A DNA stretch of 64,000 nt from NCBI RefSeq assembly GCF_013426735.1, contig NZ_AP023274.1, forward strand, positions 124,001 through 188,000. Reading direction: 5' to 3'. The notes below the pieces were generated by a model. That model made no database searches and was not told the origin of the DNA. It saw nothing but the letters and a program-made list of their open reading frames with translations. This document shows, piece by piece, positions 3,872 through 27,780 of the stretch. This DNA comes from Agrobacterium vitis. Lineage in GTDB: Bacteria; Pseudomonadota; Alphaproteobacteria; Rhizobiales; Rhizobiaceae. Numbering within the stretch: position 1 is the stretch's first letter; each line of letters starts with the position of its first letter. Made by a program: the position numbers and the translations under genes.

Positions 3872-4118
3872 CCTAAACCTCCCGCTTGCGACAGAGATTC
3901 AGATTCACCGCGTTTTGGGAAGGCCAAAAAGTCGAAATCACTGGGGCTGCGTATTAGGCATCTTCCCTATAGCGTATCGAACAGGCACGGATGTTCCGTC
4001 CCACTGGCCCAGCTCCTCAGCGAACGAGCGGCACCAGATGAGCCGACCGCCTCTTAGTTGCGGGGACGTCTGTTCCCCGAGCAATTCAATTGGCTTCCCC
4101 TACGGCGTCTCAAAGTGC

Positions 4119-4149
4119 TTGACAGGAACTTTCGCCGGCCGGCAACAAT
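4119..4149 (+). promoter_or_regulatory. Possible promoter of amiC-amiR
   Basis: TTGACA at 4119 is followed after 18-19 bases by CAACAAT, a poor -10 match. It lies 62 bases upstream of the amiC start. The 339 bases between the transposase remnant (3871) and amiC show no other supported feature. Confidence 0.3.
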
Positions 4150-4210
4150 CCTATTAAAGTCTGCCGATTTCCGGGGTAGGAGTGCACCATCGAATGAGGG
4201 AGAGTGCGGC

Positions 4211-5341
4211 GTGACCAATGAATGGCGAGTGGGAGTTCTGTTTTCCCGCAGCGGGATTACCCAGATCACCGAGACCGAACATTTTTTCGGAACGGCGCTC
4301 GCGGTCGAGGAAATCAATGAGGCAGGTGGCGTCTTGGGCAAACCGATCGTACCGGTGGCCCACGACCCCGGCGGCGACAACACCGCCTATCGTAATCTGG
4401 CCCGTCGTCTGCTGACCGATGACGACGTGAACATCATCTTCGGTTGTTCGATGTCGGCGAGCCGCAAGGCCGTGCTGCCGATCGTCGAGCGTCACAACGG
4501 CCTGCTGCTGTATCCCTCGATGTATGAGGGCTTCGAATATTCCGAAAACGTCGTCTATACTGGCGCGACGCTCAATCAGAACACGTTCGCCCTAGCCGAA
4601 TATCTGCTGCGCCATCACGGGCCGCGCCTCTATTTCGTCGGCGTCGATTATATCTACCCGCGTGAATCCAACCGCGTGATGCGCGATATCGTCGAATCCA
4701 AAGGCGGCGAGGTCGTCAGCGAACGCTATATTCCGCTGCATGCGGACAACGACACATTGAAATCGGTGCTCGCCGATATTGTCCGTCTCAAGCCGGACGC
4801 GATCTTCTCCACAATCATCGGCCGCCCGGCTCAGCAGTTCTATCGCATGTATGCCGAGGCCGGCATTGATCGCCTGCGCCATCCCATTGCCAGCCTCACC
4901 ATGGCCGAGACCGAAATCCGTGAAATCGGCGCCGGTCTGTGCACCGGCCACATCCTCTCCGCAACATACTTCCAGACAGTCGAGGGGGCGACCAACGAGC
5001 GGTTCGTCAAGGCCTACAAGCGCCGGTTCGGTGGCGAGGTCACGACCAGCGTCTGGTCCCAGCCGGCCTATGCGCAGGTCCATCTGTTCGCCCGCGCCTT
5101 GGCCCGCGCCGGCTCGCTGGAGACCCATCGCATCTCCGAGGAAATCCTGGTAGAAGACTATGCAGCGCCGGAAGGCCGGCTCAGTTTCGATGCGGATACC
5201 CGCCATCTATGGCTGCATCCACGCATTGGCGTTGCCCGCGCCGACGGCCTGTTCGACATCGCGTGGCAGGCGCCGGGGCCGATCCGTCCGGACCCATATC
5301 TGACCGCGTCGCGCTTCGAAGACGCCTGGTTGGAGGCTTAG
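4211..5341 (+). CDS. amiC: AmiC-like amide sensor / negative regulator
   Basis: The 376-residue protein belongs to the type I periplasmic-binding fold family (Peripla_BP_6). It has no signal peptide, as expected for cytoplasmic AmiC, which binds short amides and sequesters AmiR. Landmarks shared with Pseudomonas AmiC include SRKAVLPIVER, YEGFEYSENVVY, VDYIYPRESNRVMRDI and the C-terminal PIRPDPY. I start at GTG 4211, preceded by GGGAGAG; the frame is open further upstream to 4058 but that part does not look like AmiC. The amiR start codon follows three bases after the stop, so the two proteins are probably made together. The real ligand may be an amide or a nitrile. Confidence 0.92.
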   Translation: MTNEWRVGVLFSRSGITQITETEHFFGTALAVEEINEAGGVLGKPIVPVAHDPGGDNTAYRNLARRLLTDDDVNIIFGCSMSASRKAVLPIVERHNGLLLYPSMYEGFEYSENVVYTGATLNQNTFALAEYLLRHHGPRLYFVGVDYIYPRESNRVMRDIVESKGGEVVSERYIPLHADNDTLKSVLADIVRLKPDAIFSTIIGRPAQQFYRMYAEAGIDRLRHPIASLTMAETEIREIGAGLCTGHILSATYFQTVEGATNERFVKAYKRRFGGEVTTSVWSQPAYAQVHLFARALARAGSLETHRISEEILVEDYAAPEGRLSFDADTRHLWLHPRIGVARADGLFDIAWQAPGPIRPDPYLTASRFEDAWLEA

Positions 5342-5343
5342 GA

Positions 5344-5970
5344 ATGGCGGGACCCAACAGGATTGTTCAGGATCTGCGCCGCGCACGTGTTTTGGTTGCG
5401 CATCCGCGTGATGAGGACGGCGATGTGCTGGTCGCGCATCTGAAGCGCCTGGGCTGCGAGGTCAGGGCCACCTGGCCACTGCCGCCGACACTGCCGCCAG
5501 ATGTCGACACGCTCTTCCTGCATATCGAGGATACCCAGCTCGAGCAGGCTCTGCAGATCAGCGAAACCCAGCAGCCGGCGATCATCGCCATTCTGACCTA
5601 TGAGAGTCCGACCGCGCTACAGGCCATAATCGATCTCAACGCCCATGGTGTGATTTCCAAACCGCTGCGGCCGCTCGGCATCCTCACCCAGTTCGCGCTG
5701 GCGCGCTACCGCCACAGCTACGAAAAACGCCTGGTCGGCAAGGTGCAGAAACTGGAGGAAACGTTGAAGGGTCGCCGGCTGGTGGACAAGGCCGTTTCGG
5801 CGCTTAGGGCAATGAACGGGCTCGAAGAGGAGGCTGCCTACAGGTTATTGCGTGACCAGGCGACAGCCAAGCGCGTGCCGATGGCTCAGGTGGCCGAAGC
5901 GATCATCGCTGCCCATGACACCATGCGCAGCTTCGGTCTTCCCCTGCCCGGCAAGCCCAGCGCGGGCTAG
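5344..5970 (+). CDS. amiR: AmiR-like ANTAR antiterminator
   Basis: The 208-residue protein has a pseudo-receiver domain (about 1-125), a coiled-coil stretch (YEKRLVGKVQKLEETL) and a C-terminal ANTAR RNA-binding domain. ANTAR landmarks are DKAVSALRAMNG, EEAAYRLLRDQA and VAEAII. Known family members bind paired hexaloop RNA hairpins and stop intrinsic termination. A fitting leader lies directly downstream at 6065-6156. The ATG at 5344 is two bases after the amiC stop, suggesting translational coupling and a sequestered AmiC-AmiR complex. The inducer is unknown. Confidence 0.92.
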   Translation: MAGPNRIVQDLRRARVLVAHPRDEDGDVLVAHLKRLGCEVRATWPLPPTLPPDVDTLFLHIEDTQLEQALQISETQQPAIIAILTYESPTALQAIIDLNAHGVISKPLRPLGILTQFALARYRHSYEKRLVGKVQKLEETLKGRRLVDKAVSALRAMNGLEEEAAYRLLRDQATAKRVPMAQVAEAIIAAHDTMRSFGLPLPGKPSAG

Positions 5971-5995
5971 GGCCCATAGCCCTTCTGCCTAAAAC

Positions 5996-6022
5996 TTGAC
6001 CATCGAAAAGATTGCCTAATTT
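5996..6022 (+). promoter_or_regulatory. Weak promoter candidate upstream of the ANTAR leader
   Basis: TTGACC at 5996 and TAATTT at 6017 are separated by only 15 bases, shorter than ideal. If used, it would start a short leader RNA feeding the terminator at 6117-6156. Read-through from amiCR is the alternative. Confidence 0.25.
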
Positions 6023-6064
6023 CATGGCTTGACTTGCCCGGTTTTCCGTGGAAGTTTTGGTCAC

Positions 6065-6095
6065 GAGCAAGCTTGCTCAGCGGCAGGGCTGCCGC
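6065..6095 (+). promoter_or_regulatory. Dual hexaloop hairpins, candidate ANTAR-binding RNA
   Basis: Two hairpins stand one base apart. The first (6065-6078) has stem GAGC/GCTC and loop AAGCTT. The second (6080-6095) has stem GCGGC/GCCGC and loop AGGGCT, with A at loop position 1 and G at position 4, the signature recognised by ANTAR proteins. The first loop has A1 but not G4. GGCTGC at 6087-6092 can also pair with GCAGCC at 6113-6118, giving an alternative fold next to the terminator. The motif lies directly after amiR. Confidence 0.65.
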
Positions 6096-6116
6096 AACGA
6101 CATCATGGCTATGCAG

Positions 6117-6156
6117 CCTCTGGTTCACGGATTGATTTCCGTGCCAGGGGTTTTTT
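6117..6156 (+). terminator. Leader intrinsic terminator controlled by AmiR
   Basis: The stem pairs CCTCTGG (6117-6123) with CCAGGGG (6144-6150), then CACGGA with TCCGTG around loop TTGATT, with a two-base bulge. TTTTTT at 6151-6156 follows. The structure ends only 16 bases before the start codon of the next gene and just before its GGAG site. It therefore looks like a regulated leader terminator rather than the end of amiR. Confidence 0.8.
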
Positions 6157-6172
6157 GCGTTTGGAGATTGAA

Positions 6173-7018
6173 TTGACTGACACCGCACAGACGTCGCGCA
6201 ATTTGACGATCGCCTCGATCCAATTCGAACCACGCATCGGCGATCGCGACCACAATCTCGCAGCCATTGACCGGCTAGTACGCCGTGCCAAAGCCGATGG
6301 CGCCGATCTCGTGGTGCTGCCGGAACTCGCCGACAGCGGCTATGTGTTTCGCGACACGGCCGAGCTGGCCGAGCTAGCCGGGCCAGTCCCTGAGGGCGAA
6401 AGCGCGCAGATGCTGATCGCGCTTGCCCGCGAAATCGTTATCCATCTGGTTAGCGGCATTGCCGAGCGTGACGGCGAAACCTTCTACAACTCGGCGATTC
6501 TATGCGGCCCAGACGGTTATATCGGCAAATATCGCAAACTCCACCTGTGGAACGAAGAAAACCGGTACTTCGCGCCAGGCGATCTCGGTCTGCCGGTCTT
6601 CGACATCGGCCGTGGCAAGGTCGGCATCGCGATCTGCTACGACGGGTGGTTTCCAGAGGCGTTCCGCCAGCTGGCTCTGTCGGGTGCGGAACTGATCTGC
6701 GTGCCGACCAACTGGGTGCCTATGCCCGGCTCCGAAGACCAGGCTGACGCCATGTCGAACATCCTGGCTAAGGCGGCCGCCCACTCCAACGCCGTCTACA
6801 TCGCCTGCGCCGATCGGGTTGGCACCGAGCGCGGTCAGCCTTTCATCGGTCGCAGCCTGATCGTCGGCCCGCAAGGCTGGTCGGTAGCTGGCCCGGCCAG
6901 CGGCGACCGCGAGGAGATCCTTCTTGCCAAAATCGATCTGTCGAGCGTGGCGGCCAGCCGTACGCTCAACAGCTTCAATCATTTGCTCGGCGACCGCCGG
7001 GCGGATGTCTACGGGTAA
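6173..7018 (+). CDS. Nitrilase-superfamily carbon-nitrogen hydrolase (amidase or nitrilase)
   Basis: The 281-residue enzyme has the Glu-Lys-Cys triad: Glu51 in LVVLPEL, Lys122 in KYRKLHLW and Cys155 in AICYDGWFPE. The CYDxxFPE-type nucleophile site is more usual in amidases and related hydrolases than in classical nitrilases, so an amide may be the substrate. In context it would release ammonia from an amide or from the nitrile made by OxdA. I chose TTG 6173 because GGAG lies six bases upstream and conserved sequence begins there. The longer frame would start inside the terminator hairpin. Translation should depend on AmiR-mediated antitermination. Confidence 0.85.
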   Translation: MTDTAQTSRNLTIASIQFEPRIGDRDHNLAAIDRLVRRAKADGADLVVLPELADSGYVFRDTAELAELAGPVPEGESAQMLIALAREIVIHLVSGIAERDGETFYNSAILCGPDGYIGKYRKLHLWNEENRYFAPGDLGLPVFDIGRGKVGIAICYDGWFPEAFRQLALSGAELICVPTNWVPMPGSEDQADAMSNILAKAAAHSNAVYIACADRVGTERGQPFIGRSLIVGPQGWSVAGPASGDREEILLAKIDLSSVAASRTLNSFNHLLGDRRADVYG

Positions 7019-7050
7019 AAAACACGCCATACTCACAAAAGGGGAACATA

Positions 7051-8199
7051 ATGAACCGCAAATCCATCCTTCTCGCACTTGCTTCACTCGCTTTCGCCGG
7101 CAGCTCCCATGCCGCGGACCCGATCAAGATCGGCGTGCCGGTCGGCCTTTCCGGCGCCAACAGCGTCGTGGCGCCGTCGGTCGTGCAGGCCGCCGAACTG
7201 GCCGTCGAGGAAATTAATGCCAATGGCGGCGTTCTCGGCCGTCCGCTGGAACTCGAAATCGCCGACGATGCCTCGGGCGCAGCCGGCGCGCAGAAGGCTT
7301 TCGATGCGCTGGTCTTCCAGAAGGAAGTCAATGTCATCATCTCTATGGAAACCAGCGCCGCCCGCAATGCCGGGCTGCCGATCATCACCAAGGGCGACGT
7401 GCCTTACATCTACACGTCGTTCTACGAAGGCAAATCCTGCAACGCCAACCTCTTCGTCAATGCCTGGGTGCCGGAACAGCAGGTGCCGCCGCTGGTTGAC
7501 AATTTCATCGGCAAGCAGGGCGCCAAGAAATTCTTCCTGGTCGGCTCGGACTACGCCTTCGGCCGCGGTATGCTGGAATTCGCCAAGGCCTATATCGACA
7601 AGTCGGGCGCATCCGTCGTCGGCGAGGAATACCTGCCGATGGACAGCAGCGACTGGACGGCGGTGATTTCCAAGCTCAAGGCCTCCGGCGCCGATGCAAT
7701 CATCACCTCGACAGCCGGCGGCGCACCGAACGTGACGCTCACCAAGCAGCTGCGGTCTGCCGGCGTCAGCCTGCCCTACGGTAATCTCGCCGTTGACGAA
7801 GGCACGGCCAAGAGCATGGGCGCCGATGCCAGCGGCATCTTCCTCTCGGCCTCCTATGTGACCGGCATCGACAGCGCCGAGAACAAGACCTTCCTGGCAT
7901 CTATGGAAAAGAAGTTCGGCAGCGAGTTGCGCACCCCCAACGATCTTTCCGTACCGCAATATGAGGCGATCTATCTTTACAAGGCCGCCGTCGAAAAGGC
8001 GGGCTCTACGGACACCGCCGCCGTGATCGAGGCATTGCCTGCTGTCTCCTATACCGGCCCGCGCGGCCTGATTTCCATGGCCAAGCAGCACCACGCGCCG
8101 CTCACCATGTATCTCGGCCAGGTCCAGGACGATGGCAGCGTCAAGGTGGTCGACAGCTACAAGGACGTCGATCCCGGCGCACAGTGCCCCAACCTCTGA
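7051..8199 (+). CDS. Liv/Urt-type ABC transporter substrate-binding protein
   Basis: The 382-residue periplasmic protein has a typical signal peptide (basic start, hydrophobic core, cleavage near SSHA-AD) and the type I binding fold with KIGVPVGLSGANS at the mature start. AGGGGAACAT-like purine-rich sequence precedes the ATG. The family binds branched-chain amino acids, urea or short amides. Placement behind an AmiCR-controlled hydrolase favours an amide-like or nitrile-derived solute. The permease genes follow in the same operon, and the fold is the same as in AmiC. Confidence 0.9.
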   Translation: MNRKSILLALASLAFAGSSHAADPIKIGVPVGLSGANSVVAPSVVQAAELAVEEINANGGVLGRPLELEIADDASGAAGAQKAFDALVFQKEVNVIISMETSAARNAGLPIITKGDVPYIYTSFYEGKSCNANLFVNAWVPEQQVPPLVDNFIGKQGAKKFFLVGSDYAFGRGMLEFAKAYIDKSGASVVGEEYLPMDSSDWTAVISKLKASGADAIITSTAGGAPNVTLTKQLRSAGVSLPYGNLAVDEGTAKSMGADASGIFLSASYVTGIDSAENKTFLASMEKKFGSELRTPNDLSVPQYEAIYLYKAAVEKAGSTDTAAVIEALPAVSYTGPRGLISMAKQHHAPLTMYLGQVQDDGSVKVVDSYKDVDPGAQCPNL

Positions 8200-8252
8200 A
8201 AACGCGACCAGGGCGGGGCAGCGAGCCCCGCCTTCACATCAGGGAAAAATGC

Positions 8253-9086
8253 ATGACGCTCTTACTGGACATCCTCAGTACGGCAGCCATCCTGTTCATT
8301 GTCGCAACGGGGCTGCTCGCCATTTTCGGCGTACTCAAGATCATTAACTTCGCCCATGGCGCCTGGCTGACGGTTGGGGCTTACTGCACCGTCGTCACAA
8401 ACGAACTCGGCCTCAATCCCTGGTTCGCCCTGCTCCTGGCTTTCGTCACCGGCGCCGTTCTGGGCGCCCTAACGGAGCGCTTCATCGTCCGCCCGCTCTA
8501 TCGCCGTCCGCTCGACGCGATCCTGGCCACCTGGGGGCTCGGCATTGTCATTGGCCAGCTGATCACCCTGTGGTTCGGACGCGACGTGCATTTCACCCCT
8601 GCGCTCCTGCCAGGTACGCTTGACGTCCTCGACACCGGCTATTCGCTCTACCGGCTGTTTGCCGTCGGCGCAGCACTTGCCATCGGTCTTGGCTTCGCCT
8701 TCCTGCTCGAAGGCACGCGGCTCGGTCTTTCAGCCCAGGCAGTCATCATGAACGAAAACCTTGCCCGCGCGCTCGGCATGGATACCGAGAAGATCCGGCT
8801 CGCCACGTTCATGATCGGTACCGGCCTTGCCGCGCTGGCCGGGGTGCTGCTGGCGCCGCTCACCAGCGTCGATCCCAATATGGGTGTTGCCTGGCTGACC
8901 GGCGCGTTCATGCTGGTCATGGTCGCCGGCACGTCCTTCGGCGCGCTGGCCGTCGCCTGCCTTGTCTTTGGCGCCGCGCAGGTTCTGGTCTCGACCTTCC
9001 TCAGCCCCATCCTCGGCGGCATCACCGTGGCCGTCCTCTGCGCCATCACGCTTCGCATCCGTCCGAAGGGATTTGCCCGTGCCTGA
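8253..9086 (+). CDS. Liv-type ABC permease, LivH subunit
   Basis: The 277-residue inner-membrane protein has about eight hydrophobic segments and the LivH hallmark GLLAIFGVLKIINFAHG near the N terminus. The cytoplasmic EAA-like loop includes NENLARALGMDTEKIR. I start at ATG 8253, preceded by AGGGAAA; upstream residues in the same frame are not membrane-like. The stop overlaps the GTG of the next gene by eight bases, so the two subunits are likely coupled. Confidence 0.92.
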   Translation: MTLLLDILSTAAILFIVATGLLAIFGVLKIINFAHGAWLTVGAYCTVVTNELGLNPWFALLLAFVTGAVLGALTERFIVRPLYRRPLDAILATWGLGIVIGQLITLWFGRDVHFTPALLPGTLDVLDTGYSLYRLFAVGAALAIGLGFAFLLEGTRLGLSAQAVIMNENLARALGMDTEKIRLATFMIGTGLAALAGVLLAPLTSVDPNMGVAWLTGAFMLVMVAGTSFGALAVACLVFGAAQVLVSTFLSPILGGITVAVLCAITLRIRPKGFARA

Positions 9087-10830
9087 CAGACAAAGAATCC
9101 AGCTCGTCCTTCTCGCCATATTTGCCGTCGCGGGCATGCTGCTGGTGCTCTTCGGACCGGCATTTCTCGACCGCTTCAGCCTCAACGTACTGACCCGCTC
9201 GATGATCTACGCTATGCTCGCCATCACGGTGGACCTGCTGTGGGGCTATACCGGCATCCTCACCTTTGGCCAGGCCGCCTTCTTCGGCGCCGGCGCTTAC
9301 GCCACAGCAATGGTGCTGACCCATATAGGCGCCAGCCCCGCCCTCTTCGCACTCGCCTTCGCCGCAGCCATTCTGGTGCCGCTGTTGCTAGGCCTCGCTG
9401 TCGGCTGGCTCTCCTTCTATCAAGGCTCGACGCCGCTTTATGCCACAGTCATTTCGCTTGTCGTGCCGATCGTCGTCACACAACTGATCTATTCCGGCGG
9501 TGTGTGGACCGGCTCTTCCAGCGGCCTGGTCGGCTATCAGACATTGCCACTGGGTCTTCCCGGCTTCTTCCGCCTTACCGGCCTTTGCCTCGTGGCGCTT
9601 GCGGTTCTCGCCTTCGTCTTCGTGCGCTCGGATGCTGGCCGGCTGCTGAAGGCCATTCGCGACAACGAAGCCCGTGTCGCCTATCTCGGCCTCAGTCCGT
9701 CGCGGGTGAAGATCGCCCTGACCGCCGCGCTCGCCGGCGTGGCGGGACTGGCCGGCTTTCTCTACGCCAATGCCTCAGGCGTTGTCGCCCCGGAAAATAC
9801 CGGTTTCGTGTTCGGCACCGAGATGGTCGTCTGGACCGCACTTGGCGGCCGCGGCACGATCATTGGCCCACTGCTCGGCGCCATCGGCATAGACTATCTC
9901 AGTGCCAATCTTTCGGGCGAACTGCCGTTCCTGTGGCAGCTGATCGTCGGCGCCCTGTTCGTCGTCATGATCATTCTTCTGCCGGGCGGCCTCGCCTCCC
10001 TCGTCGCCCGCCACTTCCGCGATACGGCTGCGAAACAAGCACTCGAAGCACTGCCCGCCACTGTCAATATCTCGGCAGGCGGGGCAGACACACTCGTCTC
10101 GATCCGCAACCTCGGCAAGTCCTATGGCAGCCTTGCCGTGCTCAAAGGTATCGACCTGAAAATCCGCCCCGGAGAACTGGTCAGCGTCGTCGGCCCGAAT
10201 GGCGCCGGCAAGACCACGCTGATGCGTTGCCTGTCAGACGGCACCGAAGCGATCGACGGCCAGGTCGAGAGCAATGGTCACGATATAGCCGGCATGCCGC
10301 CGGAACGTATCGTCGCACTCGGCGTCGGCCGCAAGTTCCAGGTTGCCAGCATCTTCGACAGCATGACCGTGGCCGAATGCCTGCGCATGGCGCGCCTCTC
10401 CCACGAGCGTCCGAGCTTGACCAGATCAGGCACAAGCATTCCGCTACCGGTCGCCGCAGTGGAGATCCTGCGGCTTACCGGTATCGCCGACATCGTCGAC
10501 AGGCCCGTCTCGCTGCTGTCTCATGGACAACGTCAGGCACTGGAACTTGCCATGGTCGTGGCGCTCGAACCCCGCCTCATCCTGCTCGACGAGCCGACCG
10601 CCGGCCTGACCAAGGCGGAGCGCATGACCATAGGCACCGTCCTAAAGAAGCTGACATCGGAAATGGGCTTCGCCGCCATCCTGGTGGAGCACGATCTCGA
10701 TTTCGTTCGGGAGATTTCAAGCCGCATCGTCGTGCTGCATCAGGGCAAACTCGTTCTCGACGGAACGGTCGAAGATGTCGTCCAGTCCGAAACGGTCCGC
10801 ACCATCTATGCAGGAGGCGCCCATGTCTGA
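9079..10830 (+). CDS. Fused LivM permease and LivG ATPase
   Basis: The 583-residue protein joins two subunits usually encoded apart. Residues 1 to about 330 form a LivM-type permease (DLLWGYTGILTFGQAAFFG, RDNEARVAYLG). Residues about 337-583 form a LivG-type ATPase with Walker A GPNGAGKTT, signature LSHGQRQALEL and Walker B LILLDEPTAG. The start is GTG 9079 inside the end of livH. The ATG of livF lies inside its last codons. The fusion fixes one ATPase to the LivM half of the heterodimer. The whole frame is open, so this is not an assembly artefact from a lost stop alone. Confidence 0.92.
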   Translation: MPDRQRIQLVLLAIFAVAGMLLVLFGPAFLDRFSLNVLTRSMIYAMLAITVDLLWGYTGILTFGQAAFFGAGAYATAMVLTHIGASPALFALAFAAAILVPLLLGLAVGWLSFYQGSTPLYATVISLVVPIVVTQLIYSGGVWTGSSSGLVGYQTLPLGLPGFFRLTGLCLVALAVLAFVFVRSDAGRLLKAIRDNEARVAYLGLSPSRVKIALTAALAGVAGLAGFLYANASGVVAPENTGFVFGTEMVVWTALGGRGTIIGPLLGAIGIDYLSANLSGELPFLWQLIVGALFVVMIILLPGGLASLVARHFRDTAAKQALEALPATVNISAGGADTLVSIRNLGKSYGSLAVLKGIDLKIRPGELVSVVGPNGAGKTTLMRCLSDGTEAIDGQVESNGHDIAGMPPERIVALGVGRKFQVASIFDSMTVAECLRMARLSHERPSLTRSGTSIPLPVAAVEILRLTGIADIVDRPVSLLSHGQRQALELAMVVALEPRLILLDEPTAGLTKAERMTIGTVLKKLTSEMGFAAILVEHDLDFVREISSRIVVLHQGKLVLDGTVEDVVQSETVRTIYAGGAHV

Positions 10831-11530
10831 GGCCGCAAAACTTCAGCTCAACGGCATCAGCAGCGGCTACGGCGCCGTCGACGTGATCAACGACGTGTCT
10901 CTGGCCATAAAACAGGGGGAGATTTTCGCCCTGATGGGCAAGAACGGCATGGGTAAGACAACGCTGCTCAAGTCGATTCTAGGCTTCATGCCCCTCTCCA
11001 AGGGATCAGTGAATGTCGATGGCAAAGCGATTGCCGGAAAGAGACCCGCTGAGCTTGTCGCCTCGGGCATCGGCTACGCGCCACAGGAACAGCCGCTATT
11101 TCAGGACCTTTCGATCCGCGACAATCTGCGGCTGGCGTTGCGTAGCGACCGCGAGCTCAGCCCGGCGCTGAAGCGAGTCTACAGCTATTTCCCATTCTTG
11201 GAAGATCGACTTGTTCAAAAGGCTGGAACACTGTCTGGCGGCGAACAGAAGATGCTGATCTTGGCGCGGGCGCTGATGCTTCGTCCGACGCTGCTGCTGA
11301 TCGACGAAATCTCCGAGGGCCTCCAACCCTCCGTCATCATCCACATCGCGTCTGTGCTAAAACATGATCGCGCACGCAACGGCACCACCATTCTACTGGT
11401 TGAGCAGAACCTTGACTTCGCGCTTTCAGTCGCCGATCGTTGGGCAGTGCTTAAGCTCGGCGCCATCGACGACGAGGACAACAACGGTCCCGATACCCGC
11501 GCACGCGTGCTGCAACATCTGAAGATCTGA
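10823..11530 (+). CDS. Liv-type ABC ATPase, LivF subunit
   Basis: The 235-residue ATPase has Walker A GKNGMGKTT, signature LSGGEQKMLILARAL, Walker B LLLIDEISEGL and H-loop VEQNLDFA. AGGAGG lies just upstream of ATG 10823, inside the livMG gene. It should pair with the LivG domain of the fusion. The next, decayed gene begins two bases after its stop, so the original operon continued into an amidase. Confidence 0.92.
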   Translation: MSEAAKLQLNGISSGYGAVDVINDVSLAIKQGEIFALMGKNGMGKTTLLKSILGFMPLSKGSVNVDGKAIAGKRPAELVASGIGYAPQEQPLFQDLSIRDNLRLALRSDRELSPALKRVYSYFPFLEDRLVQKAGTLSGGEQKMLILARALMLRPTLLLIDEISEGLQPSVIIHIASVLKHDRARNGTTILLVEQNLDFALSVADRWAVLKLGAIDDEDNNGPDTRARVLQHLKI

Positions 11531-11532
11531 CA

Positions 11533-12330
11533 ATGGAAGACCGCTGGAATGCGCTCATGCCTTATCCGGCGGTGCCATCGCACATTCGGCAGATCCGAGC
11601 CGGCCATTGGCGAACATGCGGCTCGCCGTCAAGGATCTGGTCGATGTCGCGGGCTATCCTACGGCGGCGGGTAACCCGCACCTGCTCGCCGCCTCCGGCA
11701 TCAAGAACAAAACGGCGCCTCTTGTACAGCTGCTGCTGGATGCCGGAGCGCAATTTGTGGGCAAGACCAACACAGATGAACTTGCCTACTCGCTCATTGG
11801 CGGCAACATGCATTTCGGCATGCCCGTCAATCCAGCTCATCCGGAGCTGATCCCCGGAGGACCTCTTCTGGCTCCGCTGTAGCGGTCGCGGCTGGCCTCG
11901 CCGATATCGGTCTCGGAACCGACACGTCAGGCTCGATCCGTTTGCCAGCTAGCCAATAGCGTCATCGGTTGGCGGCCCGCCCCCTGGTTTGCTTAACACC
12001 GACAGCATTTGTCTCTTGGCATCAAGTTTCGATGTGCCGGGCTTCCTGACGCGAACGCTCGATCATACGGGCGCCGTGATGGCGGCACTGGACGTCTCTG
12101 AAAATCCCTCTCCCGATCCGTCTTTCGTTGTGCCTTGCGACATGCTCGAACGCTGCGACCCAGAGATTGTTGCGAATTTCCTCAGGGCGCTGAACAGGAA
12201 CTCCATGGCGTTCACTAAGGTAGCTTCCATGTCGACCATCCCTCTTTCCGACCTGGCGGATGGCTTCAGGACTCTTCTCCAAAAAGAAGCCTCGGAGGCC
12301 AATAAGGATGTCTTCGTCAAAGCTAGTGCA
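11533..12330 (+). pseudogene. Amidase-signature-family hydrolase, decayed
   Basis: Several frames together spell an amidase. MEDRWNALMPYP starts at 11533, and RLAVKDLVDVAG with the catalytic Lys follows in a second frame. SSGSAVAVAAGLADIGLG with GTDTSGSIRLPAS, carrying the Ser-cisSer region, comes in a third. VIGWRPAP and SSFDVPGF lie further on. At least three frameshifts separate these pieces. The gene follows livF by two bases, so the operon once encoded its own amidase. It ends where the truncated IS630 begins, near a TA dinucleotide at about 12324. Confidence 0.85.
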
Positions 12331-26411: not shown

Positions 26412-27629
26412 TTACCCGGCCTTCATACCCGCTTCTCCGTTGGTCCTTAACAAAGCCATCATCATAGGCCCGAGAGAGAATTCTCCCTGCTGTGACCGAC
26501 GGGTTAGATCACGCAGATAACCTCCTGCCGAATTGATAAAATTTGCACGTTCTAAAATACATGCAATGGCGGTTGCCGCATTCTCTTGACCCATGATTTC
26601 GCAAGCTTCCTGATAGGCGGACGGACTTACACCCAACATGGATCTAACCACCACCGCAGCTGTCATTAAGTCACGCCAATTTGCGATCTTTCCATCTGGT
26701 CCGTAATCGCCAACCGAAGGGCAGGCCTTCAAAACCATTCCAAGCGGAAATGACTTTATCGGCAGTCTTTTAGGCGAATTGTCGTGCTCCGTCATCGCTT
26801 CTTGCTCTTTTCGAGAGCGAGGTTCAAATTCAGTTATGTATTTGGTATTTGAATTCTGTATGTGCCGCTCAATTTGAGCGGCATTGGCGCTATTTTTTTC
26901 TACATTAACTTGATTTTCCAGTCGTTTAACGATGTCTCTCTTAAGGGTGTTCATCTCATCTAAAACCAACGTGACCTCAGAAAGAGCCGGCGTTCTGGAT
27001 ATTTTGCCGACGAGAGAGATATAAGCGCATTCGATCTCTTGCCAGTCACCTTGCGCGCCCTCCTCGATCGCCGCCGTGATGAGCTTGCGGACGTCTCGGC
27101 GGCAAATGGTCAGGCTTTCCTTGGCTTTTCTAAAGGTGGCGCGATCAGCCATCACCTGTTGCGCCATCATCGCAAGCTCCTCTGAGCGTGCGAGGAGGGG
27201 CGATAAATCGAAACCAAATGCCTGCTCGATTTGACCGGCATTATCCTTGCGCGCGTATCGTTTTCCATTGGCGCTATCTTTGCGAACGATCAGGCCTGCA
27301 TCTAGAAGCACTGCGATATGCCGGCGTAAAGTCGCCCCGGCCAAGCCGTGCGCCCGAAGAGCAAGTTGGGCATTCGAGGGAAAAACAACAAGCTGTGCAT
27401 CCTGCCGCAGTTCATTCTCCGGATAAAAGCTCAATAAGGCATCGAGAACCGCAAGACTGTTGGATTGTATCCCAAGCAAGTCCATTGCGGCTGAGGCATC
27501 CCTGAATATTTTCCATTTATCCGCACGTTTGCCAGGCTTAATGTCGCTTGCGGCGACCTGCCGGCGCACCAGCGCAAGCGTCATACCCCGCCGCCCGAAG
27601 GGCGTCGTTACATTTCCAGTCTCCATCAT
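26412..27629 (-). CDS. repC: RepC replication initiator of a repABC replicon
   Basis: The 405-residue protein has the RepC pattern: TTPFGRRGMTLALVRRQ near the N terminus, the winged-helix-like segment FPSNAQLALRAHGLAGATLRR and the C-terminal block around IGQENAATAIACILERA-like residues. RepC initiates replication at an origin usually inside its own gene; that origin has not been located here. The gene is third in repABC and is separated from repB by about 150 bases encoding the antisense RNA. RepC sets copy number and is the target of that RNA. Confidence 0.95.
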   Translation of the reverse strand: MMETGNVTTPFGRRGMTLALVRRQVAASDIKPGKRADKWKIFRDASAAMDLLGIQSNSLAVLDALLSFYPENELRQDAQLVVFPSNAQLALRAHGLAGATLRRHIAVLLDAGLIVRKDSANGKRYARKDNAGQIEQAFGFDLSPLLARSEELAMMAQQVMADRATFRKAKESLTICRRDVRKLITAAIEEGAQGDWQEIECAYISLVGKISRTPALSEVTLVLDEMNTLKRDIVKRLENQVNVEKNSANAAQIERHIQNSNTKYITEFEPRSRKEQEAMTEHDNSPKRLPIKSFPLGMVLKACPSVGDYGPDGKIANWRDLMTAAVVVRSMLGVSPSAYQEACEIMGQENAATAIACILERANFINSAGGYLRDLTRRSQQGEFSLGPMMMALLRTNGEAGMKAG

Positions 27630-27684
27630 CTCTCACCTTTCAGCAGGCAAAAGAAAATCACTCACCAAAATGGCGCAAAAACTC

Positions 27685-27713
27685 TTGACGAGGATTCGAG
27701 GAAATGCGATTCT
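27685..27713 (+). promoter_or_regulatory. Promoter candidate for the repABC antisense RNA
   Basis: TTGACG at 27685 and GATTCT at 27708 are separated by 17 bases on the strand opposite to repB and repC. It is correctly placed to start the small RNA whose terminator is at 27735-27775. Confidence 0.5.
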
Positions 27714-27719
27714 GTTCTT

Positions 27720-27775
27720 GCTAGAGAGACAGAAGGGCTTCCACGACGGCGACGTTGGGGGAGCTCTTTTCTTTT
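27720..27775 (+). ncRNA. Countertranscribed RNA controlling repC
   Basis: All studied repABC operons encode a small antisense RNA between repB and repC that limits RepC synthesis and determines incompatibility. Here a promoter-like pair, a roughly 55-base transcript and an intrinsic terminator (27735-27775) lie in that gap in the right orientation. The 5' end is estimated from the -10 element. Confidence 0.75.
27735..27775 (+). terminator. Intrinsic terminator of the antisense RNA
   Basis: GGGCTTCC...ACGAC pairs with GTTGGGGGAGCTC around a six-base loop, with some G-U pairs. TTTTCTTTT follows at 27767-27775. In the repC mRNA the same DNA reads as the complementary hairpin, so it could take part in antisense control of repC. 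Confidence 0.75.
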
Positions 27776-27780
27776 GCGGA

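Follow-up and report, generated by a model that had tools for sequence, protein, structure and literature searches.

A conserved three-hairpin leader beside amiR points to ANTAR-type antitermination of an uptake and hydrolysis operon in Agrobacterium vitis

In the eut dual-hexaloop motif, two hairpins are joined by linkers of 5-12 nucleotides (nt), a 3-nt linker failing in vivo, and the second hairpin overlaps the terminator, according to Ramesh 2012 (PMC3369931), which also places putative ANTAR RNAs 5′ of urea transporters. For the antiterminator EutV, PMC8934654 reports that M172A abolishes RNA binding, as does triple alanine mutation of Asn173/Arg175/Arg177, and suggests that Met172 excludes smaller loops such as tetraloops. 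Here we analyse a 64,000-nucleotide stretch of Agrobacterium vitis contig NZ_AP023274.1 (the window; C3:124001-188000 of genome G000, Rhizobiaceae, 5.88 Mb), in which an amiC-amiR pair is followed by a leader RNA, a nitrilase-superfamily hydrolase gene and genes for an ATP-binding cassette (ABC) importer. An ANTAR-type antitermination switch of the AmiC-AmiR kind very probably controls this one operon, which is predicted to take up and hydrolyse a small nitrogen compound of the amide or urea type. The conclusion rests on the conserved parts of the leader, stem covariation, the overlap of a third hairpin with the terminator, linkage to amiR and the presence of a single strong copy. The literature base comprised PMC3369931, PMC8934654, PMC8164766, PMC7496416 and PMC8955678.

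The leader is housed in the 202-bp gap 5971-6172. A model-made reading of this DNA from its letters (the sequence-only reading) had noted, downstream of amiR, two adjacent hexaloop hairpins, one of them with an A1/G4 loop, then a strong stem-loop with six T residues and, 16 bases later, the hydrolase start. All of these are present (P_I, P_II and the terminator; Table 1): the P_II loop AGGGCU has A1 and G4, that of P_I has A1 but C4, and the single base 6079 separates the two hairpins. The terminator stem (CCUCUGG-UU-CACGGA-UUGAUU-UCCGUG-CCAGGGG, 6117-6150), which A6115/G6116 can lengthen, is directly followed by TTTTTT at 6151-6156; the 16-base spacer 6157-6172 holds GGAGA at 6163-6167 and leads to the TTG start codon at 6173. 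That reading lacked a third hairpin, P_III, and a conserved TTGACT upstream of all three. The sequence GGCNNNNNNGCC (P_III) is found in 83/83 leaders, one of which has an 8-base loop.

The 3′ arm of P_III (AGCC, 6115-6118) doubles as the base of the terminator 5′ arm, and the two structures are therefore mutually exclusive. When prefixes starting at 6063 were folded, P_III was present in those ending at 6120-6144 and the terminator took over at 6150. Keeping P_III costs 3.4 kcal/mol and reduces the terminator from -22.5 to -14.4 kcal/mol, the residual hairpin standing two bases from the T-run; in this folding model, a modest binding energy could be enough to tip the balance. P_II and P_III thus form two stem-loops with a linker of 11 nt, 5′ of an intrinsic terminator that the second overlaps and excludes. 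As the published eut geometry (linker, terminator overlap) fits them, they are the likely ANTAR pair, with P_I as an extra 5′ hairpin. For the region 6113-6158 the folding energy is -23.2 kcal/mol (z -5.79; 0/200 shuffles as low) and 6060-6158 gives z -3.01 (1/200), while 6066-6096 alone gives z -0.32 (68/200) and the minimum-energy fold of 5971-6172, which includes sequence 5′ of the presumed start, lacks the hairpin at 6080-6095. The support for P_I and P_II is comparative rather than from folding energy. A simple scan of 3872-11600 called no terminator and no sigma-70 promoter; the terminator was probably missed because of its 2-base bulge. A promoter-like TTGACT-N17-AAGTTT nevertheless precedes the hairpins. 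A TTG[AC] box starts 35-41 nt 5′ of P_I in 68/70 aligned rows (shuffles: mean 3.9, maximum 9), with exact TTGAC in 34 of the 70 and, because this spacing is constant, transcription would likely start near 6063-6065, the foot of P_I.

A profile search of genome contigs with an AmiR alignment kept 80 loci (L033-L112). Alignment A2 (70 rows) comprises the leaders of the window, L031, L032 and L033-L099; a covariance model built from it, R1, finds 13/13 held-out loci (L100-L112; Bradyrhizobium, Aureimonas and others) with E values of 4.9e-13 to 1.6e-8. Over all sources, the leader occurs at 83/83 AmiR loci, 70 of them by construction. No Rfam family matches it, and R1 now provides a covariance model for a leader absent from Rfam. 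The named stems (P_I, P_II and the terminator) pair in 97.1% of cells, and 101 cells are changed on both sides (shuffles: mean 26.8, 0/500 as high), compared with 42.6-50.6% paired and ≤20 both-sides-changed cells when the structures are slid by 1-3 columns; the shuffle tests take no account of relatedness among loci. Both-sides changes affect 2/4 pairs of P_I, 2/5 of P_II and 6/15 of the terminator. Conservation of the hairpins at related amiR loci, on which the sequence-only reading had staked its proposal, is thus borne out. In a blastn search of the 5971-6172 gap against plasmids (39 records), the matches listed include, besides the two from A. vitis, 18 from Rhizobium/Sinorhizobium; in 17 of these 18 the alignment is confined to 6063-6167/6168 (identity 91.5-93.3%), and in the remaining one it starts at 6026 (84%). 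Because the plasmid alignments start there, we regard the leader as conserved from about 6063 and the preceding sequence as much less so.

Linkage to amiR was assessed in 249 genomes of the order, with R1 run under stricter filters. R1 matches occur in 17 of them. Fifteen of these make up the full set of Thr-type AmiR genomes in the sample (15/15; AmiR at E 8.2e-48 or better; the type refers to the residue at the EutV Met172 position, see below), each with one leader beside amiR. AmiR also matches at E up to 1e-30 in 12 further genomes, all of them Met-type, and none of these has an R1 match (0/12). The two further matches, in G791 (2.8e-6) and G801 (6.9e-5), were counted as false, there being no AmiR in either locus; they adjoin frames that we take from their letters to be ribosomal-S4-like and GGDEF/EAL-like, respectively. 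Where genomes or records had been selected because they carry the locus, the R1 leader was found in 12/12. The A. vitis genome itself has one strong R1 match (1.2e-28; next 0.059), and a multi-operon regulon in this genome was rejected on this basis. It does carry a second amiC-amiR pair (G000:C2:116517-117032), Met-type by translation, for which the own-genome R1 search gave no strong leader. Weak R1 matches elsewhere (G256 7.1e-5, next 0.0066) are no evidence of ANTAR targets. The G256 match (L196 4069-4175, minus strand) has two hairpins and a terminator 5′ of a 467-aa frame; no AmiR match was found within the fetched 10 kb.

A mechanism is proposed in which we infer AmiR binding, the ligand, release from AmiC, the order of events and the start site. 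A promoter just 3′ of amiR would give an RNA with P_I at its 5′ end and then P_II and P_III. As long as ligand is absent, AmiC would hold AmiR; P_III would form briefly before being displaced by the terminator, and transcription would stop near 6151-6156. With ligand, AmiR would be freed and would bind P_II and P_III, P_I perhaps serving as an extra docking site. Bound AmiR would hold 6115-6118 in P_III; the terminator would thereby be shortened from its base, and read-through would allow hydrolase and importer to be made together. Gating of both by AmiC and AmiR had been suggested by the sequence-only reading and is the best reading, because the terminator-containing leader adjoins amiR and is conserved with it, although the ligand class given there, amide, is not established.

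Several points weigh against this mechanism. The argument is drawn from sequence and folding. Because P_III hardly varies (it pairs in 100% of cells, and 3/4 pairs never change), covariation neither supports nor opposes it; its invariance is a fact of the letters, its pairing we infer. The RNAalifold consensus includes P_II and the terminator, leaving out P_I as well as P_III. Folding had been proposed as a check by the sequence-only reading and, while the terminator comes out beyond chance, the region of the first two hairpins (6060-6112) is weak alone (z -1.39, 13/200 shuffles as low). The residual terminator next to P_III still folds at -14.4 kcal/mol. The promoter has a weak -10 box and was missed by the consensus scan, and the EutV contacts whose alanine mutation abolishes binding (Met172; Asn173/Arg175/Arg177) are partly missing from AmiR. 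P_I and P_II could alternatively be the dual-hexaloop site, as the sequence-only reading had paired them, with GGCU/AGCC merely the base of the terminator and AmiR blocking termination in some other way. These two hairpins do look protein-bound, given their common loop pattern (A1, G3, U6) and the covariation of both stems. However, their 1-nt linker falls short of the 5-12 nt of eut, for which a 3-nt linker did not work in vivo, and the terminator is overlapped by neither of them. Across the 13 held-out loci, moreover, P_I is diverged or unclear while the P_II stem and GGCU..AGCC persist, and in the nine Met-type sister leaders inspected a hairpin P1 occupies P_I's place relative to TTGAC (9/9; TTGACT 38-42 nt 5′ of P1), two hairpins sufficing there. 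We consider this arrangement improbable.

Two readings that dispense with AmiR at the leader carry less weight still. The leader could be an attenuator that binds a ligand itself, or otherwise acts independently of AmiR, and just happens to adjoin amiR, which would agree with its stable folding without protein; its make-up of three short hairpins lacking any conserved junction or pocket, its lack of an Rfam family and its strict linkage to Thr-type amiR make this very unlikely. Equally hard to credit is a terminator that simply closes the amiCR transcript, with the hydrolase gene on its own unregulated promoter. Terminators commonly follow regulator genes, and some read-through would suffice, but the TTGAC box lies 5′ of the hairpins rather than 3′ of the terminator (68/70), the start codon comes a mere 16 nt after the T-run, and P_I and P_II covary. 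Antitermination by AmiR through P_II and P_III is therefore preferred.

The loops differ from those of the canonical motif. Among rows with six-base loops, P_I has A1 in 67/70, G3 in 67/70 and G4 in 22/70; P_II has A1 in 65/68, G3 in 59/68 and G4 in 38/68; and P_III has U1 in 69/69, G4 in 66/69 and A6 in 68/69. A1 and G4 occur in both P_I and P_II in only 5/70 rows, and these counts led us to reject A1/G4, which the sequence-only reading had taken as a signature, as a mark of the family. The conserved loop G is at position 3 in P_I and P_II and at position 4 in P_III. Pairing between the first and sixth loop positions is possible in 63/66 (P_I) and 60/66 (P_II) distinct rows. In the wider alignment A3, with 2 gapped rows dropped (n = 64), the P_II 1-6 letters are A-U 49, C-G 10, U-A 1, A-C 3 and U-U 1, and the change from A-U to C-G fits a real 1-6 closing pair. 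Judged by its letters, the leader is predicted to work like the canonical ANTAR motif rather than strictly being one.

AmiR was aligned to EutV, with EutV numbered as in PMC8934654 and the alignment chain offset by 2. Three EutV contacts to G4 (Arg142, Glu160 and Tyr164) correspond to R144, E162 and Y166, each in 82/82 sequences (L031-L112), and Arg168 corresponds to R170 (82/82); the fourth G4 contact, Lys149, is V, I, T or A here. The Met172 plug is missing: the window has T174 at this position, and the 82 sequences have T (80) or S (2). At the Asn173/Arg175/Arg177 places, A175 and P179 differ and only R177 is kept. T is also found in all 120 protein-database homologues among the matches listed (the best 120 of 237), while 150 distinct AmiR-type sequences comprise 91 T, 2 S and 57 M. 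In a tree of 104 of these 150 proteins (47/93 Thr/Ser-type and all 57 Met-type), Thr/Ser forms one side of one branch (support 97/91; 94% of 200 bootstrap trees), which suggests that Met to Thr/Ser was a single change. Because Thr/Ser forms one clade, any correlation between residue and loop counts as one evolutionary event, not many.

One mechanical scanner was applied to the leaders of both types. It found candidates for 87/93 Thr/Ser-type AmiRs (53 distinct hairpin pairs) but for only 20/58 distinct Met-type AmiRs (19 distinct hairpin pairs), some of which (such as L020, L022 and L212) may have the wrong structure. In Thr/Ser-type leaders, 47/53 first and 52/53 second loops can close, with G3 in 42/53 and G4 in 27/53 first loops; in Met-type leaders, 5/19 first and 4/19 second loops are closable, and first loops have G4 in 18/19 and G3 in 4/19. 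We tentatively propose, with somewhat less than even confidence, that the ANTAR RNA code changed in this clade, with the Met plug lost, 1-6-closed, tetraloop-like loops bearing G3, a closed G4 antiterminator and three hairpins. Counter to this idea are the closable Met-type loops, among which the second loops of L009, L262, L268 and L270 are closed U..G4..A like P_III, the small number of Met-type leaders found and the dependence of the correlation on a single event. If true, it would supply evidence from nature on the idea, put forward in PMC8934654, that Met172 excludes tetraloops, and a natural Met-less clade that is one-to-one with closed-loop leaders in our samples makes that idea testable by residue and loop swaps. 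In the Met-type leaders L184 8552 and L193 5958, the loop of the second hairpin consists of A only (GAGC[AAAAAA]GCUC), and A1/G4 fails there too. Among the titles listed in searches of an open-access library, none describes the leader or the Met-to-Thr change, which is no proof of absence, and some of these leaders may be among the putative ANTAR RNAs of Ramesh 2012.

Table 1. Features of the window (positions counted from its first base).
Feature	Position	Strand	Support
Aliphatic aldoxime dehydratase OxdA beside AraC-type regulator	207-1295; 1416-2351	-; +	NF050090, 666 bits (cut-off 600)
amiC, predicted cytoplasmic-type ligand sensor (Peripla_BP_5)	4211..5341	+	Pfam 418 bits
amiR, AmiR_N pseudo-receiver + ANTAR	5344..5970	+	Pfam AmiR_N 122 bits, ANTAR 50 bits
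Promoter-like TTGACT-N17-AAGTTT (TTGACT at 6029-6034)	6029..6057	+	conserved box spacing
Hairpin P_I, GAGC[AAGCUU]GCUC, extra 5′ hairpin	6065..6078	+	covarying stem
Hairpin P_II, GCGGC[AGGGCU]GCCGC, putative recruitment hairpin (P1 of the ANTAR scheme)	6080..6095	+	covarying stem
Hairpin P_III, GGCU[AUGC]AGCC, putative antiterminator (P2)	6107..6118	+	conserved sequence
Intrinsic terminator (stem-loop 6115-6152) + T6 tract	6115..6156	+	fold z -5.79; covarying stem
CN_hydrolase (nitrilase superfamily), 281 aa	6173..7018	+	Pfam 190 bits
Substrate-binding protein, UrtA/AmiC-like	7051..8199	+	8tg1 203 bits, UrtA 7s6e 172 bits
Permease, UrtB/LivH-like	8253..9086	+	profile matches
Fused permease + ATPase, UrtC-UrtD / LivM-LivG like	9079..10830	+	profile matches
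ATPase, UrtE/LivF-like	10823..11530	+	profile matches

The surrounding genes are listed in Table 1. An AmiC-like sensor adjoins a protein with AmiR_N and ANTAR domains; amiC sits just 5′ of the range described in the sequence-only reading, its closest PDB relatives are P. aeruginosa AmiC (1qnl/1pea, ~310 bits), and its predicted cytoplasmic type is assigned from homology. Against the PDB, the amiR product matches AmiR (1qo0_D, 91 bits) and EutV (36 bits). The hydrolase belongs to the nitrilase superfamily by Pfam and by its letters, the triad places being occupied by E51-K122-C155; the nearest solved structure is PH0642 (1j31, 232 bits), and Pyrococcus nitrilase is also near. For the substrate-binding protein, the closest PDB entries are 8tg1 and UrtA proteins. 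The LivM-LivG fusion seen in the sequence-only reading is genuine, BPD_transp_2 and ABC_tran lying within one 583-585 aa frame. The order amiC-amiR-hydrolase-substrate-binding protein-permease-(permease+ATPase)-ATPase is complete in 74/80 loci, and amiC is upstream of amiR in 79/80. The incomplete loci end with their contig (L051, L072, L100, L106), have no amiC that was found (L052) or lack the hydrolase (L112, a betaproteobacterial metagenome-assembled genome).

The amide assignment of the sequence-only reading is not established. The hydrolase falls below the NCBIfam equivalog cut-offs for archaeal nitrilase (250/500 bits), aliphatic amidase (77/427) and formamidase (74/406), as do the importer subunits for the urea transporter: UrtA 235/493, UrtB 193/250, UrtC 193/296, UrtD 206/304 and UrtE 222/286 bits. 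Furthermore, G505, a distantly related genome of the same phylum with a Thr-type AmiR, has two R1 leaders (L183 1908-2034 and 10597-10707), one preceding urease genes (gamma+beta, alpha, UreG-like, UreD) and the other between amiR and a substrate-binding protein/permease set 66% and 59% identical to that of the window. Because of these urease genes, in one genome, the sequence suggests a urea-like compound or small amide as ligand. A regulon of uptake plus hydrolysis is likely, the importer being combined with the hydrolase or, in one relative, with urease. The sequence upstream of the G505 leaders is sigma-54-like by eye (GG-N10-GC).

A near-identical locus (AmiR 99.0%) lies on a 437-kb plasmid of A. 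vitis F2/5. Rfam matches to S-element and ctRNA_p42d were seen at 27624-27777 of the window; we take these elements to be typical of repABC plasmids, and because of them the contig is probably a plasmid or chromid. An amidase gene remnant in two frames, with low identity in its second part, occupies 11604-12324 and corresponds to the amidase gene 3′ of the ATPase in R. leguminosarum, a symbiont that carries this operon; several other loci likewise have an amidase-signature enzyme there. Transposase-like frames run from 12323 onward. Aldoxime dehydratase adjoins the operon both here and in A. vitis F2/5; in the latter, the OxdA/AraC-type region is followed by amidase, transporter and a nitrile hydratase subunit. 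A nitrile pathway as the operon's conserved partner was rejected, as no oxd match was found in L032-L112.

The P. aeruginosa amiEBCRS operon resembles this locus in its homologous AmiC (~310 bits) and AmiR (91 bits) and in an attenuated leader before the structural genes. Here, in contrast, the regulators come first with the leader 3′ of amiR, the hydrolase is of another CN hydrolase branch (aliphatic amidase model 77 versus a cut-off of 427 bits), and an ABC importer is present. The difference in order, pointed out by the sequence-only reading, is right in kind, although the amiC-amiR-leader-targets order is common, for example in Met-type relatives, several of which have a leader ~90-140 nt 3′ of amiR. 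The importer is alike UrtABCDE in that all five subunits have Urt models (NCBIfam) as best match, yet all are below cut-offs and the UrtC- and UrtD-like parts are fused; it presumably also resembles short-chain amide (Fmd) ABC importers. With the E. faecalis EutV system the leader shares hairpins 5′ of an intrinsic terminator, the last overlapping it, and AmiR shares the ANTAR G4-contact residues; unlike that system, it has three hairpins, 1-6-closable loops, G3 in the first two and Thr/Ser for the Met plug. The Met-type Rhizobiaceae sister leaders (e.g. L200-L207, L211) also combine amiC-amiR, TTGACT, hairpins (two, with an 8-nt gap) and a terminator, but have only two hairpins in the nine inspected, open G4 loops and Met at 174. 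Because P1 of these leaders occupies the place of P_I relative to TTGACT, the third hairpin of the Thr/Ser-type leader looks derived.

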